From NCBI RefSeq assembly GCF_006539725.1, contig NZ_BJNO01000002.1:248001-312000 (forward strand): a DNA stretch of 64,000 nt, given 5' to 3'. This stretch comes from Klebsiella terrigena (lineage in GTDB: Bacteria; Pseudomonadota; Gammaproteobacteria; Enterobacterales; Enterobacteriaceae). Below the pieces are notes generated by a model. The model worked only from the letters and a program-made list of their open reading frames with translations. It was not told the origin of the DNA and did not search any database. A program made the translations under genes and the position numbers. Positions within the stretch are counted from its first letter, which is position 1, and each line of letters opens with the position of its first letter. Below, piece by piece: positions 19,164-26,758 of this stretch.

Positions 19164-20396
19164 ATGGATAAATTGCTTGAGCGTTTTTTACAGTACGTTT
19201 CTTTAGACACGCAGTCGAAGGCCGGCGTGCGTCAGGTTCCGAGCACGGAAGGGCAGTGGAAGTTGTTGCGCCTGCTGCAGGCGCAGCTGGAAGAAATGGG
19301 GCTGGTTAACGTGACGCTAAGCGAGAAAGGGACGGTGATGGGAACCCTGGCCGCGAACGTGGCGGGGGATATTCCGCCCATTGGCTTTATCTCCCACGTC
19401 GATACCGCGCCTGACTTCAGCGGCAAGCACGTCAGCCCGCAAATTGTCGAAAACTACCGCGGCGGCGATATCGCCCTCGGCATCGGCGACGAGGTGCTCT
19501 CGCCGGTGATGTTCCCGGTGCTGCATCAGCTGCTGGGGCAAACGCTGATCACCACCGATGGCAAAACGCTGCTCGGCGCGGACGATAAGGCCGGCATTGC
19601 CGAAATTATGACCGCGCTGGCGACGCTGCAGGCGAAAAATATTCCCCACGGCGATATCCGCGTGGCGTTTACCCCCGACGAAGAGGTGGGGAAAGGGGCG
19701 AAGCACTTTGACGTTGCCGCCTTCGACGCGCGCTGGGCCTACACCGTTGACGGCGGCGGCGTCGGCGAGCTGGAGTTTGAGAACTTCAATGCCGCCTCGG
19801 TGACCATTAAAATCGTTGGCAATAACGTTCACCCCGGCACCGCCAAAGGGGTGATGGTTAACGCCCTGTCGCTGGCGGCAAGAATTCATGCCGAAGTCCC
19901 GGCCGATGAGGCGCCGGAAACCACCGAAGGCTATGAAGGCTTTTACCATCTGTCGACTATCAAGGGCAGCGTTGACCGCGCCGAGATGCACTACATTATC
20001 CGCGATTTTGACCGCAAGCAGTTTGAAGCCCGCAAGCGCAGGATGATGGAGATCGCCAAAAAGGTCGGCAAAGGGCTGCATCCGGACTGCTATATCGAGC
20101 TGGTAATTGAAGACAGCTACTACAACATGCATGAAAAAGTGATCGCCCATCCGCACGTCGTGGAGATTGCCCGCCAGGCGATGGTCGATTGCCATATCGA
20201 ACCGGAAATGAAGCCCATTCGCGGCGGCACCGACGGGGCGCAGCTCTCTTTTATGGGCTTGCCCTGCCCGAACCTGTTTACCGGCGGCTATAACTACCAC
20301 GGCAAGCATGAGTTCGTGACGCTGGAAGGGATGGAGAAGGCGGTACAGGTTATCGTGCGGATAGCCGAACTGACGGCAAAGCGGGGCGCGCAGTAG
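19164..20396 (+). CDS. pepT: Peptidase T (tripeptidase)
   Basis: Zinc aminotripeptidase of 410 residues, M20 family, cytoplasmic. The metal site includes H78 and D80 (SHVDTAPD), the bridging Asp in [13 protein letters not shown], and the Glu pair in [10 protein letters not shown]. The lid domain contains [15 protein letters not shown], and the C-terminal ligand is in [17 protein letters not shown] precedes the ATG. The 274-base gap upstream holds its promoter; E. coli pepT is FNR-activated, but I see no clean FNR site. Full length; the insertion starts just downstream. Confidence 0.97.
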
Positions 20397-20462
20397 CGCC
20401 CGGCTGAACCGGGCTGCCGGCATCGCGACCACTTAGCAGGCATTAACCGGATGTATGAGTGC

Positions 20463-20493
20463 GTTTGTACGTTACCCGAGTGGACGTACAAAC
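20463..20493. repeat. Perfect inverted repeat at the parA remnant start
   Basis: GTTTGTACGT (20463-20472) and ACGTACAAAC (20484-20493) are exact 10-bp inverses separated by 11 bases. The repeat covers the likely parA start, a position suited to autoregulation or a parS-like site. Confidence 0.6.
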
Positions 20494-20647
20494 TGCGAAA
20501 ATTCTATCCGTTATTTCCCCAAAAGGCGGTGAAGGCAAGTCGACTTTCGCTGCCTACCTCGCTCGTGGCAAGTTCAAAGCGATAGAATCAATTATCACCA
20601 CTGCTACCGTGAGGGGCAAGAAGATTAACTGGAGGCTTTGGGCCTGA
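20480..20647 (+). pseudogene. ParA-like ATPase, N-terminal remnant
   Basis: Translation from the GTG at 20480 gives VDVQTAKILSVISPKGGEGK followed by STFAAYLA: the deviant Walker A (KGGEGKST) and first strand of ParA/Soj partition ATPases, in the form I know from integrative conjugative elements. After about 27 residues similarity stops and the frame closes at 20647, so Walker B and the rest are gone. A full ParA is about 250 residues or more. It lies downstream of pepT in the same direction. Confidence 0.7.
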
Positions 20648-20793
20648 CTCCTCTCTCCAAATAAACGACTCACGTCACAACATCTGTTCACCTTTATGAC
20701 CCTATTCTGTTCATCCTTTGGTATTTTAGTTTCTTCCCTGCATTGCTATAACTAACATTAAAGAAGCCCCATATCTCCACCAGGATGTTGATA

Positions 20794-22317
20794 ATGAGCG
20801 TGCTGAATCAAAGACAAATTAACCTGATTAACTTGTTGGCTAACGAAAATGAATGGTTGGCAACGAATCACGCGGCTGAAATTTTAAATGTTTCGGTCAG
20901 CACGTTGCGTAGAGATATCGACACTGTCAATGCTTTCTATCGTTATAAAGGGAACCGCATTGACAGCAAACCTGGGTTAGGCCTCAAACTTGTCGGTACT
21001 AAAGTACTCACTCGGCCGCACAACTCCGGTGATAGTTCTATTAAGGAAATATTAAAAAGCAAGCGGCTTATCGGAATTGCCACCGATTTATTAACTCATT
21101 CTCCGGCTCCTCTCTCCATCAATGCGCTTGCAGAAAAATATTTCATTAGTCGTTCATCTATTGTTGTTGACTTAAAGAAGGTGGAGGCATGGGTAGCGTC
21201 TTTTAATCTAACGATGATAAGAAATCATACCGGAACCTATATTGGAGGTAATGATTTTAATATTCGCATAGCCTTAAAAGATATTATTACTTATAGCGTA
21301 CTCAATAATTACCAGATGACCGATAGCCGTATCGACCGCTTTTCACGCATACAGCTCATCAAGGAATTTGGCAAGAAAAATGTCGCTAATTGCATGACGC
21401 TGATTTCACTCATCGAAGAGGACCTGCAATCCTCAATTAGTGAGCCGTATTATACCAATTTATTCTCACATCTTTTAGTCACCATTCGACGGGCTAAAAA
21501 TCATTTTCGCGATCATTGCGATGATGATTACGTACGCGCCGAGAATAAAGAGTGGCATATTGCGGAGAAGGCCATCCAGTGGCTGGAAACAGAATACAGC
21601 ACCTCACTGCCGACAATCGAAGTGAGCTATATCTATCAGTATATTGTCTCTTCAGGAATTCACTCCACTCTCGCTCCGCCGGATGAAAACCTGCATAGCA
21701 ACCACGAGGCGACTCATTACGTGGAACAGCTTATACAAGAGATTTCGGCGTCGCTGGCTATCGATCTGTCGTACGACCCCACTCTCAAAAGTGCCCTGAT
21801 ATCACATATCAAACCGATGCTTAACCGGCTAGCCTATGGCATTACCATCCATAACCCATTACTGGAAGAGATTAAACAGGAGCTGACTTCCGTCTTCACA
21901 TCGGTCAAGGCAACGGTCGAAAAAATCAATACACAGCAGGCGCTTCTCTCTGCCTCAGACGACGAAGTCGCATACCTGACCGTTTATATTCAGGCCGCCA
22001 TTGAGAAAATAAAAATTAGCAAGAAAATTATTCTTGTCTGTTCCAGCGGCATTGGTACCTCACAACTATTGTATAGCCGAATTAAACGGGCATTTCCGGA
22101 GTGGGACATCGTAGATATTGTACCAGGTGCCCGTCTGAAAGAAACGCTGGAGCAGAAAGCTTGCGACCTTATCATTTCCACCATTCGTCTCGACGATATT
22201 AATCTGCCAATCGCTTATGTTTCGGCCCTGTTCTCAACCAAAGATATTATCCGCGTGACTGAGTGTCTTGGGTCAGACCTGAATATAAATATTAAGGAGA
22301 ATTATGATGTTAGATAA
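20794..22317 (+). CDS. PRD-domain transcriptional regulator of the PTS operon
   Basis: Regulator of 507 residues in the BglG/MtlR/Mga-like group. It has an N-terminal helix-turn-helix (ATNHAAEILNVSVSTLRRDI), a second HTH around 105-130, two PRD domains, and a C-terminal EIIB-like domain with C416 in VCSSGIGTSQLLYSRI. Each PRD keeps its first histidine (SHLLVTIRRAK; HIKPMLNRLAYG), but the usual second one looks replaced (IYQYIV, LTVYIQ). No EIIA domain follows, so it is shorter than MtlR-type proteins. AGGA eight bases upstream favours the ATG at 20794 over 20785. Probably an activator tuned by PTS phosphorylation; it overlaps the EIIA gene by 11 bases. Confidence 0.85.
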   Translation: MSVLNQRQINLINLLANENEWLATNHAAEILNVSVSTLRRDIDTVNAFYRYKGNRIDSKPGLGLKLVGTKVLTRPHNSGDSSIKEILKSKRLIGIATDLLTHSPAPLSINALAEKYFISRSSIVVDLKKVEAWVASFNLTMIRNHTGTYIGGNDFNIRIALKDIITYSVLNNYQMTDSRIDRFSRIQLIKEFGKKNVANCMTLISLIEEDLQSSISEPYYTNLFSHLLVTIRRAKNHFRDHCDDDYVRAENKEWHIAEKAIQWLETEYSTSLPTIEVSYIYQYIVSSGIHSTLAPPDENLHSNHEATHYVEQLIQEISASLAIDLSYDPTLKSALISHIKPMLNRLAYGITIHNPLLEEIKQELTSVFTSVKATVEKINTQQALLSASDDEVAYLTVYIQAAIEKIKISKKIILVCSSGIGTSQLLYSRIKRAFPEWDIVDIVPGARLKETLEQKACDLIISTIRLDDINLPIAYVSALFSTKDIIRVTECLGSDLNINIKENYDVR

Positions 22318-22780
22318 GATTGTCATCTCTGATCTACTTAGTAAAGAGTGCGTGCTGACTGACCTGGTCGCCAATACCAAACTTGATGTTATTGAAAAAA
22401 TGACCGATCGACTGTGCTCAGCAGGAGCGATAAGTGATAAAAAAGGGTTTATTCAGGATGTTCTGGCCCGTGAGGAATTAGGCTCTACCGGTTTCGAAAA
22501 TCAAATTGCGATTCCTCATGGAAAATCACCGTGGGTCAGAGAGACACGTATCGCCGTGGCGAAATTAAAACATACCGTTGATTGGGAAACGATGGACAGC
22601 ACGGATGTCAAACTCGTCATTCTTTTTGCCGTAAAAGATGCTGATAGCGGTGCCGGACATATTCGTGTCCTCGCCAAAATTTCTATTGCTCTTGGTGATG
22701 ATGACACTGTCGAAAAATTACTTAATGCTAATTCACAAGAGGAACTATACGGTTTGATTGTTAACAATACTGAAGAATAA
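22307..22780 (+). CDS. PTS EIIA component, fructose/mannitol type
   Basis: Phosphocarrier of 157 residues, PTS_EIIA_2 fold. The phospho-accepting histidine is H71 in QIAIPHGKS, preceded by the typical REELGSTGFENQIAI. A second conserved segment is VKLVILFAVKD. It receives phosphate from HPr and passes it to the downstream EIIB. AAGGAG lies four bases before the ATG at 22304 and seven before the ATG at 22307; the latter spacing is better. It sits between the regulator and EIIBC in one transcript. Confidence 0.88.
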   Translation: MLDKIVISDLLSKECVLTDLVANTKLDVIEKMTDRLCSAGAISDKKGFIQDVLAREELGSTGFENQIAIPHGKSPWVRETRIAVAKLKHTVDWETMDSTDVKLVILFAVKDADSGAGHIRVLAKISIALGDDDTVEKLLNANSQEELYGLIVNNTEE

Positions 22781-22802
22781 TAACTTTCCCAGGAGAGATA
22801 TC

Positions 22803-24215
22803 TTGAACATTATAGCCATAACGGCCTGTCCAACAGGCGTTGCTCACACGTACCTTGCAGAAGCTAATTTAAAAAAACATGCAAAAAAGATGGGCCTCAA
22901 TCTACTGGTTGAAACGCAGGGCGCAGTAGAAAGTGAATATATATTTACTGTCGATGATATTAAATTAGCGGATATTGTTCTGATTGCCGCAGATAAAGTT
23001 ATCGACATGTCCCGCTTCGCAGGTAAAAAAATCATTCGGGTTTCAGTCACCCGTGCAGCTAAAGATGCATCAGGATTATTACAAGATATTGTCTCAGGTA
23101 ATTTAGCGCCTGAGTTGATGGAAAGCCGCGATGCGAAATCTGCCAATGAACCCACTACAGCGGGAGATAAATCAACATTACTATCGCAAATTTACGTCCA
23201 TTTGATCACTGGCGTTAATTTGATGATCCCCTTCGTCGTTGCGGGAGGGATATTGATTGCCTTGAGCTTTTCGTTCGGTATTACAGCCGCCACTCCGGGA
23301 GATCCGCATTTCAGCCCCCTCGCTAAAATGCTTTCCGATATTGGTGGGGGAGCAGCATTTGCACTGATGTTGCCGATCCTATCATTGGGGATCAGTAAAT
23401 CAATTAGCGGCAACGCCGGAATTGTCTCCGGCGCGGTAGGAGGGATGCTGGCCATTCATACCGGTTCAGGCTTCCTGGGGGCGCTACTTGCCGGATTTAT
23501 GGCCGGATACGTCACCTTTGCTATCGTGAAGTATATCAACCTGCCTAAAGCTATCGCAGGCCTGAAGCCTATTCTGATAGTCCCTCTGCTAAGCGTTTTT
23601 ATCACCGGCGCATTGATGATTCTGGTGATTGGCGAACCGATCAAACTGCTTCTCGAAGCCCTGACGGCTTTCCTCGCCAATATGGGGAATACCAATGCGG
23701 CAATTATGGGTTTGATGATGGGCATGATGGTTGCCTTTGATATGGGCGGGCCGTTAAACAAAACGGTATGTATGTTCGCCATTGGCTTAATGTCCACCGG
23801 TATCTATGAGCCCATTGCCGCATGTATGGCGGCGGGCATGGTGCCACCGCTGGGCATCGCCCTGGCAACCACCTTATTTAAAAGCAAATTCACTGAACAG
23901 GAGAGAGAAACGGGCAAAGTCACTTATGTGCTGGGTCTTTCATTCATTACTGAAGGTGCAATCCCTTACGCCGTTGCCGATCCCCTGAGAGTGATCCCCG
24001 CAATCGTCGCGGGTTCTGGTCTGGCGGGGGCGCTTTCAATGGCGCTGGGCTGCGCCTCTCGAGCACCGCACGGTGGTGTGTTCGTGATGTTTATTCCCAA
24101 TGTTATTACCAATGTACTGGGCTATCTCTTTGCCATTCTTGCAGGTGCAATTTTGACCGCCCTCATTCTGCGCTTTATTAAAAAAGACGCTCCACAAACT
24201 GTTCTGGAGAATTAA
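22803..24215 (+). CDS. PTS EIIBC component, fructose type
   Basis: Membrane permease/phosphotransferase of 470 residues. The EIIB domain starts MNIIAITACPTGVAHTYLAE with phospho-accepting C9 and extends to about 100. After a linker (about 105-130) comes EIIC, with around nine to ten helices. The conserved PHGG-type loop is RAPHGGVFVMF and the substrate loop contains FDMGGPLNKTVCMF. The start is the TTG at 22803, with AGGAG seven bases upstream; an in-frame ATG at 22758 would add 15 residues before the EIIB motif and overlap the EIIA gene. Substrate unknown; fructose-like ketoses or polyols are plausible. Confidence 0.87.
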   Translation: MNIIAITACPTGVAHTYLAEANLKKHAKKMGLNLLVETQGAVESEYIFTVDDIKLADIVLIAADKVIDMSRFAGKKIIRVSVTRAAKDASGLLQDIVSGNLAPELMESRDAKSANEPTTAGDKSTLLSQIYVHLITGVNLMIPFVVAGGILIALSFSFGITAATPGDPHFSPLAKMLSDIGGGAAFALMLPILSLGISKSISGNAGIVSGAVGGMLAIHTGSGFLGALLAGFMAGYVTFAIVKYINLPKAIAGLKPILIVPLLSVFITGALMILVIGEPIKLLLEALTAFLANMGNTNAAIMGLMMGMMVAFDMGGPLNKTVCMFAIGLMSTGIYEPIAACMAAGMVPPLGIALATTLFKSKFTEQERETGKVTYVLGLSFITEGAIPYAVADPLRVIPAIVAGSGLAGALSMALGCASRAPHGGVFVMFIPNVITNVLGYLFAILAGAILTALILRFIKKDAPQTVLEN

Positions 24216-24218
24216 ACC

Positions 24219-25079
24219 ATGTTGATAAATATGAAAGATCTGCTGCGCGTTGCACAGGAAAACCAATTTGGGGTAGGCGCATTTAATATCGCCTCGGCGG
24301 AATTTGCCCGGTTGGTTATTGAGGTTGCCGAAGCGCAGCGCTCACCGGTTATTCTGGAAATCCACCCGGATGAACATGAGTTTGTGGGGGATGCATTCAT
24401 CGGTTATTTGCGGGAACTGGCGATAACCGCCACGGTGCCGGTCGTTATTCATCAGGATCACGGGCAGACGTTTGAACATATTATGCGGGCGATCCGCACT
24501 GGCTATACCTCAGTGATGATCGATGCCTCCGCAGTACCGCTAGAAGATAATATTGAAATTACCCGACGCGTCGTCGAAGTCGCTCATACGGTGAACGTTT
24601 CCGTTGAAGCAGAATTGGGTACCATCGGTGTCGCCCTGGGTAGTGCAGAAGGCGGACACAGCGAGATCCTCTATACCGATCCCGCGCAGGCAGAACGTTT
24701 TGTTGCTGAAACTGGAGTCGACACGCTTGCGGTGGCGATTGGTACCTCTCACGGACTTTATCCTGTGGGGATGCAACCTAAGCTCGATATTGAACGTTTG
24801 CAGGAAATCCGTCAGCGTCTGAATATCCCACTAGTGTTGCACGGCGGTTCCGGCAATAAGGACAGCGAAGTCGCCGAATCTATTCAATTTGGCGTGGGTA
24901 AAATCAATATTTCCAGCGATATGAAAAAGGCATTCTTTGTGGCGCTGGAAGAGGAGCTCAAAGGTAACAGCCATGAGCCAAATGCGCTGTTTCTCAAGCC
25001 GATGGCTGCGGCTCGAGAAGTCGTCGCACACAAAATGCGTCTGTTTTCGTCTGTAGGCAAAGCATCACTTTACGCTTAA
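24219..25079 (+). CDS. Class II ketose-(bis)phosphate aldolase
   Basis: Metal-dependent aldolase of 286 residues in the FbaA/GatY/KbaY/IolJ family. The catalytic acid is D80 and zinc ligands are H81 (HQDHGQTFE), H178 (AIGTSHGLYP) and H208 (LVLHGGSGNKD); E132 lies in VEAELGTIG. NISSDMKKAFF near 225-240 binds phosphate. It starts three bases after the EIIBC stop and ends the operon. As there is no kinase in the operon, the aldolase either cleaves the PTS product directly or relies on a kinase encoded elsewhere. The substrate cannot be read from the sequence. Confidence 0.87.
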   Translation: MLINMKDLLRVAQENQFGVGAFNIASAEFARLVIEVAEAQRSPVILEIHPDEHEFVGDAFIGYLRELAITATVPVVIHQDHGQTFEHIMRAIRTGYTSVMIDASAVPLEDNIEITRRVVEVAHTVNVSVEAELGTIGVALGSAEGGHSEILYTDPAQAERFVAETGVDTLAVAIGTSHGLYPVGMQPKLDIERLQEIRQRLNIPLVLHGGSGNKDSEVAESIQFGVGKINISSDMKKAFFVALEEELKGNSHEPNALFLKPMAAAREVVAHKMRLFSSVGKASLYA

Positions 25080-25149
25080 CGACCAGAACGGGGATGAGGG
25101 CGGCATCGCTCTCATTCTCCCTGGCTCAGACTGGCTCAGGTAAAACAGG

Positions 25150-25236
25150 TTAAGCGGGAAAGCGAAGGCAAACGGAAACTTTGGTTGGCTGTTCTGAAGG
25201 CCTGGCGTTTTTTACTGCAATATCAGTTAAGCGCAT
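25150..25236 (-). pseudogene. P4-type tyrosine integrase, N-terminal remnant
   Basis: From the ATG at 25236, with GGAGG seven bases upstream, the minus strand reads MRLTDIAVKNARPSEQPTKV, which fits the DUF4102 N-terminus of P4-family integrases (MxLTDxxVRxAKPxxKPYKL). It loses similarity after about 20 residues and stops at residue 28. The catalytic domain is missing. Its start lies about 185 bases from the tRNA-like 3' end and it reads away from it, the usual layout of tRNA-linked integrases. Confidence 0.65.
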
Positions 25237-25285
25237 GGCGGGCCTCCGGTAAGGTAGATGTCGGTAAAAAACTCACCGAACTGAG

Positions 25286-25305
25286 TTTACCAACTTTTTA
25301 CCAAC
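25286..25305. repeat. Direct repeats resembling integrase arm sites
   Basis: TTTACCAAC occurs at 25286-25294 and 25297-25305, eleven bases apart (one helical turn), between the integrase remnant and the tRNA-like end. Closely spaced short direct repeats in this position are typical arm-binding sites of tyrosine integrases. Inferred role. Confidence 0.45.
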
Positions 25306-25385
25306 AAAAAGCGGTGGCTGCCAGTGTATGTCAAGGAACAGTAGTGAACATGAAGAACGGGATAACATGTTGACTTCATAAAGCA

Positions 25386-25411
25386 AAACGGACGCCAAAG
25401 AGCGTCCGTTT
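25386..25411 (-). terminator. Terminator following the tRNA-like end
   Basis: AAACGGACGC (25386-25395) and GCGTCCGTTT (25402-25411) pair perfectly over ten bases. On the minus strand it follows the CCA end of the tRNA-like sequence by about ten bases and continues into TTTTGC, as for tRNA gene terminators. It would also stop transcripts coming from roxA. Confidence 0.75.
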
Positions 25412-25420
25412 CTGAATGTC

Positions 25421-25452
25421 TGGTGCCCCGAGCTCGGAATCGAACCAAGGAC
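25421..25452 (-). other. tRNA-Phe-like 3' end (probable attachment site)
   Basis: The minus strand reads GTCCTTGGTTCGATTCCGAG then CTCGGGGCACCA. The first 20 bases are identical, as I recall it, to the T-arm of enterobacterial tRNA-Phe. The acceptor strand differs (TCCGGGCACCA in tRNA-Phe) and has one extra base, and no 5' tRNA half is present, so this is not a working tRNA. A 3' tRNA fragment beside an integrase start is what an att site looks like. Confidence 0.65.
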
Positions 25453-25495
25453 GCAGGGAGCTCATTATTCCGGCCCGCAGGCCGGGAAAGCTAGC

Positions 25496-26617
25496 TTAGT
25501 CTTCGAAGAACCAGTAGCCGCTGTTGACCAGCGCCGCCAGCATCGCGAGGAACGACGGATCTTCCAGCGCATCGCCGAAGTGCTCCGCGTTGAGCGCCAG
25601 GTGCATGGCCAGCGCGTCCAGCGCCGGACGATGCGGGGAGTTAATCCTCTCGCCGTTGACGAACACTTCGCCGTCAATGCGCACCACGCGCAGCCCGCCG
25701 AGCCTCACCAGCTTGTCGCCCTGCTGCAGCGCGTCGTAAATTTCATCCGGCTGATACGGCGGCTCCGCAGGGGCCACGTCCAGCTCGTGACGGGACTGGG
25801 TAATAAACTCGCCATACCACTGTTTGAAATGCTCAGGCTGGTTAATCAGCTCCAGCATCATCTCGCGCAGGCGATCCAGCTCGACGGGTAAAATATCCGC
25901 CGGATGCTCGCGCGACGGTACGTCAGGATCGGCGTAGCGCTGGCTGCCGAGCTCGCGCTGCAGGATATAGTCGGCAAAGCCGCTGAACAGCTCGCGGGCG
26001 TTCGGCGCGCGGTAGCCCACGGAATAGTTCAGCGAGTTTTCCAGCGAATAGCCTTCGTGCGGGAATCCCGGCGGAATATAAAGGATATCGCCCGGCTCCA
26101 TCTCTTCATCGATGATCGCCTCGAACGGGTCAACCTGCAGCAGATCCGGATGCGGGCAGTGCTGCTTCATCGGTACCTTGTCGCCCACGCGCCAGCGGCG
26201 GCGTCCGGTTCCCTGAATAATAAACACGTCGTACTGATCGAGATGCGGGCCTACGCCGCCGCCGGGAACCGAGAAGGAGATCATCAGATCGTCGATGCGC
26301 CAGTCCGGCAGGGCGCGGAACGGGTGCATCAGCGCCGCCGTCGGCTCGTGCCAGTTGTTGACCGCCTGCACCAGCAGCGACCAGTTGTTCTCGCTCAGGT
26401 GATCGTAGCTTTCAAACGGGCCGTGGCTGACCTGCCATTTTCCGTCCTGATGGCTGACCAGGCGGCTATCGACTTCGTTTTCCATCGCCAGTCCGGCCAG
26501 CTCATCCGGGCTAATGGGATCGACGAAATTGGCAAAGCCCCGCTTTAATACCACCGGGCGTTTTTGCCAGTAGCGTTCGATAAAGTCAGGCCAGTTAAGC
26601 GTTAATTGATAATCCAT
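25496..26617 (-). CDS. roxA: Ribosomal protein uL16 arginine hydroxylase RoxA (YcfD)
   Basis: Fe(II)/2-oxoglutarate oxygenase of 373 residues, JmjC-like; in E. coli it hydroxylates Arg81 of ribosomal protein L16. The metal motif is HLDQYDVF with the distal His in GFPHEGYSLENSLNYSVGYR, and IIQGTGRRRWRVGDK contributes to the cofactor pocket. The C-terminal winged-helix-like domain ends SGYWFFED. The start at 26617 (MDYQLTLNWPDFIERYWQKR) matches E. coli; the longer frame to 26662 has no family support. Its transcript points into the element relic; a GC-rich hairpin CCGGCC/GGCCGG follows the stop. Confidence 0.95.
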   Translation of the reverse strand: MDYQLTLNWPDFIERYWQKRPVVLKRGFANFVDPISPDELAGLAMENEVDSRLVSHQDGKWQVSHGPFESYDHLSENNWSLLVQAVNNWHEPTAALMHPFRALPDWRIDDLMISFSVPGGGVGPHLDQYDVFIIQGTGRRRWRVGDKVPMKQHCPHPDLLQVDPFEAIIDEEMEPGDILYIPPGFPHEGYSLENSLNYSVGYRAPNARELFSGFADYILQRELGSQRYADPDVPSREHPADILPVELDRLREMMLELINQPEHFKQWYGEFITQSRHELDVAPAEPPYQPDEIYDALQQGDKLVRLGGLRVVRIDGEVFVNGERINSPHRPALDALAMHLALNAEHFGDALEDPSFLAMLAALVNSGYWFFED

Positions 26618-26758
26618 TTTTATATTCCACAGCAGGTGTCTGTTTGGGATTATACACGCCATCCCTCAAACTGCCTCTTTGTTGGCAGCGTTTGTTCGTC
26701 TGGTCACAGAGATCCGCGACGCCCGCAGGACGCAGGCGTCATTGGGGGAGAAGGGCGG

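Follow-up and report, generated by a model that had tools for sequence, protein, structure and literature searches.

The interval between the genes pepT and roxA was analysed in a 64,000-bp stretch of DNA from Klebsiella terrigena (contig NZ_BJNO01000002.1, positions 248,001 to 312,000; hereafter the window), which originates from a draft genome of 54 contigs, labelled G000. This interval is an insertion of a relic of tRNA-Phe integrative elements, and it carries a complete four-gene operon encoding a regulator, a sugar phosphotransferase system (PTS) and an aldolase. The reading towards which we lean, with modest confidence and on the basis of sequence comparison, is that of a composite tRNA-Phe element relic that would have been inserted off-target and of which, apart from one retained operon, the interior was lost. 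The insert spans positions 20428-25453 (5,026 bp) and has a GC content of 0.466, against 0.572 for the window.

The ends of pepT and roxA were at most 2.5 kb apart, with the insert missing, in 19 of the 19 other genus genomes searched. The nearest empty site, in genome G015, is near-exact (CCGGCAACGCGCAGGGAG); in the window, the corresponding bases are split into CCGGCATCGCG on the pepT side and CAGGGAG on the roxA side, so that zero host bases were lost and the insert is bounded by 20428 and 25453. The left host junction falls at 20427/20428, where the empty site L032 was used for comparison, and host DNA resumes at 25454..25475, a segment that together with the left flank equals the G015 site, by eye, save for a few substitutions. 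An earlier reading made from the letters alone (the sequence-only reading) had described 20459..25455 as an AT-richer operon bracketed by element traces at a locus unbroken in E. coli, and had proposed a comparison of the pepT-roxA interval across related genomes. The insertion, its AT-richness and its bracketing were borne out by the empty sites and the GC values, while the left limit proved slightly too narrow. An ancestral interval deleted in the relatives is an extremely improbable explanation and was rejected, as the 19 genomes, the G015 site and the lower GC content all speak against it and nothing was found in its favour.

The left end of the insert is that of an integrative and conjugative element (ICE) of the SGI-4/SPI-7 type. 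Positions 20432..20566 (plus strand) comprise the end region and approximately 22-23 codons of parA with the start codon lost, the ATG of the other copies being GCG in the window. This segment was 85.9% identical to pSGI4, a record in circular form of the ICE SGI-4 from Salmonella (E 6e-36, two records of equal plasmid size), and 82.2% identical to an SPI-7-type element with dnaB-PI on a K. michiganensis plasmid (E 2e-29). The plasmid records matching the left end were three in all (pSGI4 twice and the K. michiganensis plasmid), and the E. coli genomes yielded zero matches. The ParA start named in the sequence-only reading is therefore present, although its homology ends after 22-23 residues and not after about 27. 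In pSGI4, the K. michiganensis plasmid and genome G155, a 49-bp tRNA-Phe 3' sequence, referred to here as the core, directly precedes the parA end, and in loci L043, L044 and L086 it directly adjoins TTCGCAGG or TTCACAG. Compared with these three loci and the empty site L032, the window keeps only about five diverged core bases at 20428..20432 (plus strand; ACCAC versus ATCCC in the ICEs, by eye). SGI-4-like elements are reported to use phe-tRNA as their insertion site and to have parA at their left end (PMC6543542).

The right end matches a different kind of sequence, namely the integrase end of islands with a P4-type integrase. It is composed, on the minus strand, of the first 20 or so codons of a P4-type tyrosine integrase (25175..25237), the integrase upstream region with two arm-type repeats (25238..25385) and a tRNA-Phe 3' end (25421..25453), with a hairpin of the tRNA/integrase end between the latter two (25386..25411; perfect 10-bp stem, z -3.77). 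Positions 25175-25420 matched integrase regions adjoining tRNA-Phe with identities of 90% in G131 and G072, 89% in G366 and 81% in E. coli ECONIH5, while G017 was 81.5% identical over 25175-25459; overall, identities ranged from 80 to 91% with E values down to 2e-91, and the right end was found in 4 of 5,426 E. coli genomes. With E values of 6e-36 and 2e-91, chance matches were rejected for both ends, and the parA and integrase fragments recognised from the letters alone thus have significant counterparts. The window integrase shares 15 of 19 aligned residues with that of G366 and its homology stops after 20 codons, in agreement with the truncation point previously given. The same holds for the arm-like repeats, with TTTACCAAC situated at 25286-25294 and 25297-25305 and TTACCAAC present twice in each of the seven related regions compared, and for the tRNA-Phe-like 3' end with its terminator-like hairpin. 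Core positions 1-31 are kept apart from a single substitution and a single-base insertion. The local alignment extends to core position 38 (25459); as 25454-25459 is identical to the empty site too, this stretch may be either host or core. The P4-type integrase region adjoins the tRNA-Phe gene in L036, L047, L082, L084 and L085; the islands L036, L047 and L140 carry a relaxase gene, and L047 and L140 additionally carry an 18-bp far repeat equal to core positions 7-24. ARAGORN detected zero tRNA genes in the window, and an intact tRNA-Phe sequence was not found in the whole G000 assembly, probably owing to an assembly gap at the repeated tRNA-Phe loci. As separate observations, the same P4-integrase right end next to a truncated tRNA-Phe 3' end is located at L037 5588-5870 (G006) and L038 5524-5789 (G017), where ARAGORN likewise returned zero tRNA genes, which suggests further relics or array junctions.

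Inside the two ends, and absent from the sequence-only reading, lie two short pieces of a transposase gene of the ISNCY (IS1202-family) type, one adjoining the parA end and the other the integrase end. The left piece (20565..20597, plus strand) consists of the last codons and stop, with 90.9% identity to L033 3404-3436 (E 5e-6) and a weaker gapped similarity running to approximately 20633. The right piece (25125..25179, plus strand) is internal to the gene and 91-95% identical to L033, L034 and L035; identity was 94.5% in the 18 plasmid matches listed for it out of 425 records. In an intact transposase gene, the right-hand piece lies upstream of the left-hand piece at a distance of 92 bp, and both stand side by side in G003, G004 and G005, so that their order is swapped around the operon. 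This arrangement fits two directly repeated insertion sequence (IS) copies around the operon that were later truncated. The IS1202 family was formerly the IS1202 group of ISNCY, and the transposase of tISKpn65 is reported to have 452 aa (PMC10132070). The pieces are putatively assigned to ISNCY/IS1202 by annotation and length, and named after tISKpn65 only by the equal length of 452 aa; they share 91-95% identity with the transposase gene over no more than 33 and 55 bp. Only two transposase fragments occur at the insert, where a complete gene would mark a full IS, and a search for IS ends recognised neither terminal inverted repeats here nor the ends of the reference IS. A dif-module explanation, prompted by the IS1202-family pieces, was rejected, since zero dif-like sites were found within three mismatches and XerD half sites numbered 11 versus 7.45 expected. 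In the reference loci, a gene for a TPR protein follows the ISNCY transposase gene at a distance of 58 bp in both L033 (3424-4286) and L046 (3168-4018), and the pair might represent a transporter IS that carries a passenger gene.

The operon between these pieces is complete and all four of its open reading frames (ORFs) are intact, in the order known for PTS-aldolase operons. It begins with a 510-aa PRD-domain regulator resembling BglG/MtlR (20785..22317; Pfam PRD, HTH_11 and Mga), followed by a fructose-type PTS enzyme IIA of 158 aa (22304..22780; TIGR00848, 122.4 versus a cut-off of 103.5 bits; PF00359), a fructose-type enzyme IIBC of 470 aa with an assumed TTG start (22803..24215; TIGR01427, 380.8 versus 157.55 bits; TIGR00829, 96.2 versus 76.85 bits) and a class II ketose-bisphosphate aldolase of 286 aa (24219..25079; NF006042, 419.7 versus 405 bits; PF01116), all on the plus strand. 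The regulator matches, at 99% identity, a protein cluster that comprises 63 database sequences. Among the 21 loci found by IIBC, 14 contained all four genes in the same order with at least 90% query coverage. Within the genus, besides the own genome, a long operon match occurred only in G010 (K. oxytoca), with 72% identity and at a different place. The operons of Pantoea, K. oxytoca and Enterobacter ludwigii contain the same four genes in the same order (protein identity of 56-85% in L089-L092) but lie elsewhere in their genomes, and island ends or IS pieces were not found beside them. Of 59 loci searched, the 58 other than our own contained neither island ends nor IS pieces; these 58 comprised 53 drawn by PTS-operon genes (many through a single gene, and some representing the same place) and five pepT-roxA intervals. 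The 21 related PTS loci, for most of which the search took in some 8 kb of either flank, likewise gave zero. Upstream of the regulator gene, 42 bp (20685-20726) have a counterpart of 81% identity in Pantoea L089, and the operon therefore seems to keep its own control region. Downstream of the aldolase gene, the hairpin at 25386-25411 may serve as the terminator of the operon and separate it from the convergent roxA. Consensus scans for promoters and terminators returned six and five sites against shuffle means of 8.3 and 4.8, without listing this hairpin, and were uninformative. A known RNA in the insert was rejected, an Rfam scan having given one sub-threshold match (E 0.46).

The sequence-only reading had assigned the whole insert to a single SPI-7/PAPI-1-type element. 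An integrative-element relic and an SGI-4/SPI-7-type left end were indeed identified, but the right end matched islands with a P4-type integrase and a relaxase, and a common origin of the two ends is weakly supported at best. The two ends probably come from different elements, the left from an SGI-4/SPI-7-type ICE and the right from a P4-integrase island. Among 392 family genomes (E up to 0.001), 8 matched the left end and 20 the right end, counts that include the own genome and several short matches, and both ends occurred only in the own genome, that is, in 0 of the 391 others. The integrase of pSGI4 (336 aa) has a SAM-like N-terminus and its 3' end toward the core, whereas the P4-type integrase (421 aa) has Arm-DNA-bind_3 and its 5' end toward the core; both belong to PF00589, and BLASTP gave no significant match between them. 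Compared with SGI-4-like ICEs of the SPI-7/ICEPm1 kind at tRNA-Phe, the insert shares the left end with the parA start (82-86% identity) placed against the tRNA-Phe core, although parA is truncated and the core reduced to about 5 bp. Such ICEs also have dnaB-PI, parB, conjugation genes, an integrase of their own and a site at a tRNA gene, none of which applies to the insert. In the insert, the intact genes are the regulator, IIA, IIBC and aldolase genes; the start of a P4-type integrase faces inward where pSGI4, the one reference element, has its own integrase and a different right end; and one partial, split core stands in place of flanking 49-52-bp tRNA-Phe direct repeats. Regarding the P4-integrase islands at tRNA-Phe, of the type found in E. 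coli ECONIH5, G017 and G131, the insert is 80-91% identical from the integrase start through the arm repeats and the hairpin to the tRNA 3' end, but it lacks their relaxase gene and far-end repeat, its integrase is cut after 20 codons, and only operon genes are intact.

The alternative of one SPI-7-type ICE whose usual integrase was swapped for a P4-type one, and which then integrated and decayed, appears rather unlikely. It would save one event, its ends are arranged and oriented as those of one element would be, and tRNA-Phe islands are reported to be mosaics (PMC11537424); on the other side, the two integrases share no significant BLASTP match, the relaxase islands (L036, L047 and L140) have no left-end match and none of the 391 other family genomes combines both ends. 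For the SPI-7-type ICE of E. coli CFSAN051542, the stretch examined has zero tRNA-Phe annotations next to the ParA gene, and its integrase-domain protein had a BLASTP match to neither the pSGI4 nor the P4-type integrase, which makes it uninformative on which integrase such ICEs use. Core positions 1-31 at the right and approximately 45-49 at the left place both outer breaks inside one 49-bp core, as would be left by a circle with one core that opened within it. The right part extends beyond core position 24, the limit of the 18-bp far repeats in L047 and L140, and it exceeds the repeats of P4-integrase islands (18 bp here, and 19-23 bp as reported for E. coli GI-pheV in PMC11537424), which suggests use of the 49-52-bp core of the SGI-4 type. 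A mosaic assembled elsewhere, on a plasmid or in a tRNA-Phe island, could instead have entered the gap by end joining or short homology, an alternative that we regard as doubtful though not negligible: core bases were lost, the junctions share only CG, and the short ISNCY fragments and the 2-5-bp overlaps at the inner joints look illegitimate, but two breaks within the same 49-bp core would be expected by chance in about 1% of cases for a 5-kb circle (49/5026), and the host bases of the target are intact. That the ends and the PTS operon arrived at different times and are unrelated to each other is improbable. One additional event or more is evident from the IS pieces, and the 21 related PTS loci are free of island ends and IS pieces, yet the ends are oriented consistently about one core, they bracket the insert exactly, and the empty site shows a single clean break.

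Several observations weigh against the composite, off-target insertion that we favour. Both junctions lack 6 to 13 core bp (positions 39-44 or 32-44, depending on whether 32-38, which look like host as well as core, are assigned to the core). A clean integrase reaction would have preserved them, and either a small deletion afterwards or an event without an integrase would have to be assumed. The similarity of the target to the core is weak, at 5 of 7 bases by eye. A tandem junction (P4-integrase end, core, parA end), sought in one of its two orders with up to three mismatches, occurred in 0 of 387 family genomes, and neither a donor with both ends nor the operon between such ends was found. 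Finally, pSGI4 is the one SGI-4-type element of which the far end was examined, and it is from this element that ICEs of this type would appear to be without the P4-type integrase, a point that also favours the single ICE.

Under the composite reading, the left end would stem from an SGI-4/SPI-7-type ICE and the right end from a P4-integrase mobilizable island, the two having been tandem neighbours within an array at a tRNA-Phe gene. In Proteus mirabilis, ICEs with 52-bp repeats are reported to occur in tandem at tRNA-Phe (PMC11278526). The array, or what remained of it, may have been excised in circular form with a single tRNA-Phe core, and recombination inside this core would then have placed it between pepT and roxA. 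Earlier or at about the same time, the interior (parA after codon 22 or so, the conjugation genes and the integrase gene after codon 20) would have been replaced by the PTS-aldolase operon flanked by directly repeated ISNCY-family IS pieces. Both attachment ends are broken, as is the integrase, and the insert would be unable to move by itself. A more specific version, in which an SGI-4-type integrase co-excised the neighbouring P4-integrase island as a chimeric circle, carried it off-target to a gap outside tRNA genes, and the hairpin became the operon terminator, is offered as a tentative possibility.

The loss of transfer genes beside an intact PTS operon, as stated in the sequence-only reading, was corroborated. 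Its proposal of domestication agrees with intact ORFs beside decayed ends, and selection after insertion would be the inferred part. The window alone differed at 14 of 117 left-end columns where the three other copies agree and at 9 of 183 on the right, compared with 1, 6 and 6 differences peculiar to the other left copies and 0, 3, 6, 0, 0, 7 and 0 for the right copies, three of which are nearly identical, so that their counts stay at 0. In a substitution-only simulation (300 runs), the share of runs in which all four ORFs remained stop-free was 0.67%, 4.7% and 37% for divergences of 5%, 3% and 1%, respectively. If the operon has been in place as long as the ends, selection likely retained it. 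Judged from its predicted functions, it may have been useful for hexose import and phosphorylation followed by bisphosphate cleavage; a sugar kinase is not among the four genes, and a host kinase would presumably supply the bisphosphate.

Every component of the insert is already known. The locus indicates how a metabolic operon can become a chromosomal property after delivery by a mobile element that was stripped save for two diagnostic ends. Should the chimeric origin be true, naming such relics by one end would give the wrong parent, and tRNA-Phe elements would leave fossils outside tRNA genes. A thin literature search returned nothing on this pepT-roxA site, which says little about the published record.

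The insert is flanked at the left by pepT (19164..20396, plus strand; NCBIfam TIGR01882, 513.9 bits versus a cut-off of 285.75) and at the right by roxA (25496..26662, minus strand), in which PF08007 JmjC_2 and PF20514 ROXA-like_wH were recognised. Elsewhere in the own assembly, at G000:C21:48708-49972 and G000:C19:73045-98309, lie a divergent counterpart of the SGI-4 dnaB region (72% identity over 333 bp) and two more P4-type integrases (53% and 58%). In relatives (L008, L011, L015, L019, L041 and L172), the pepT-roxA gap often contains what we take, by eye, to be palindromes like those of repetitive extragenic palindromic sequences, together with RAYT-like ORFs, and Pfam assigned zero families to four such ORFs. 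The gap of G008 (L169) holds a different insert, with radical SAM and LysE-type genes.

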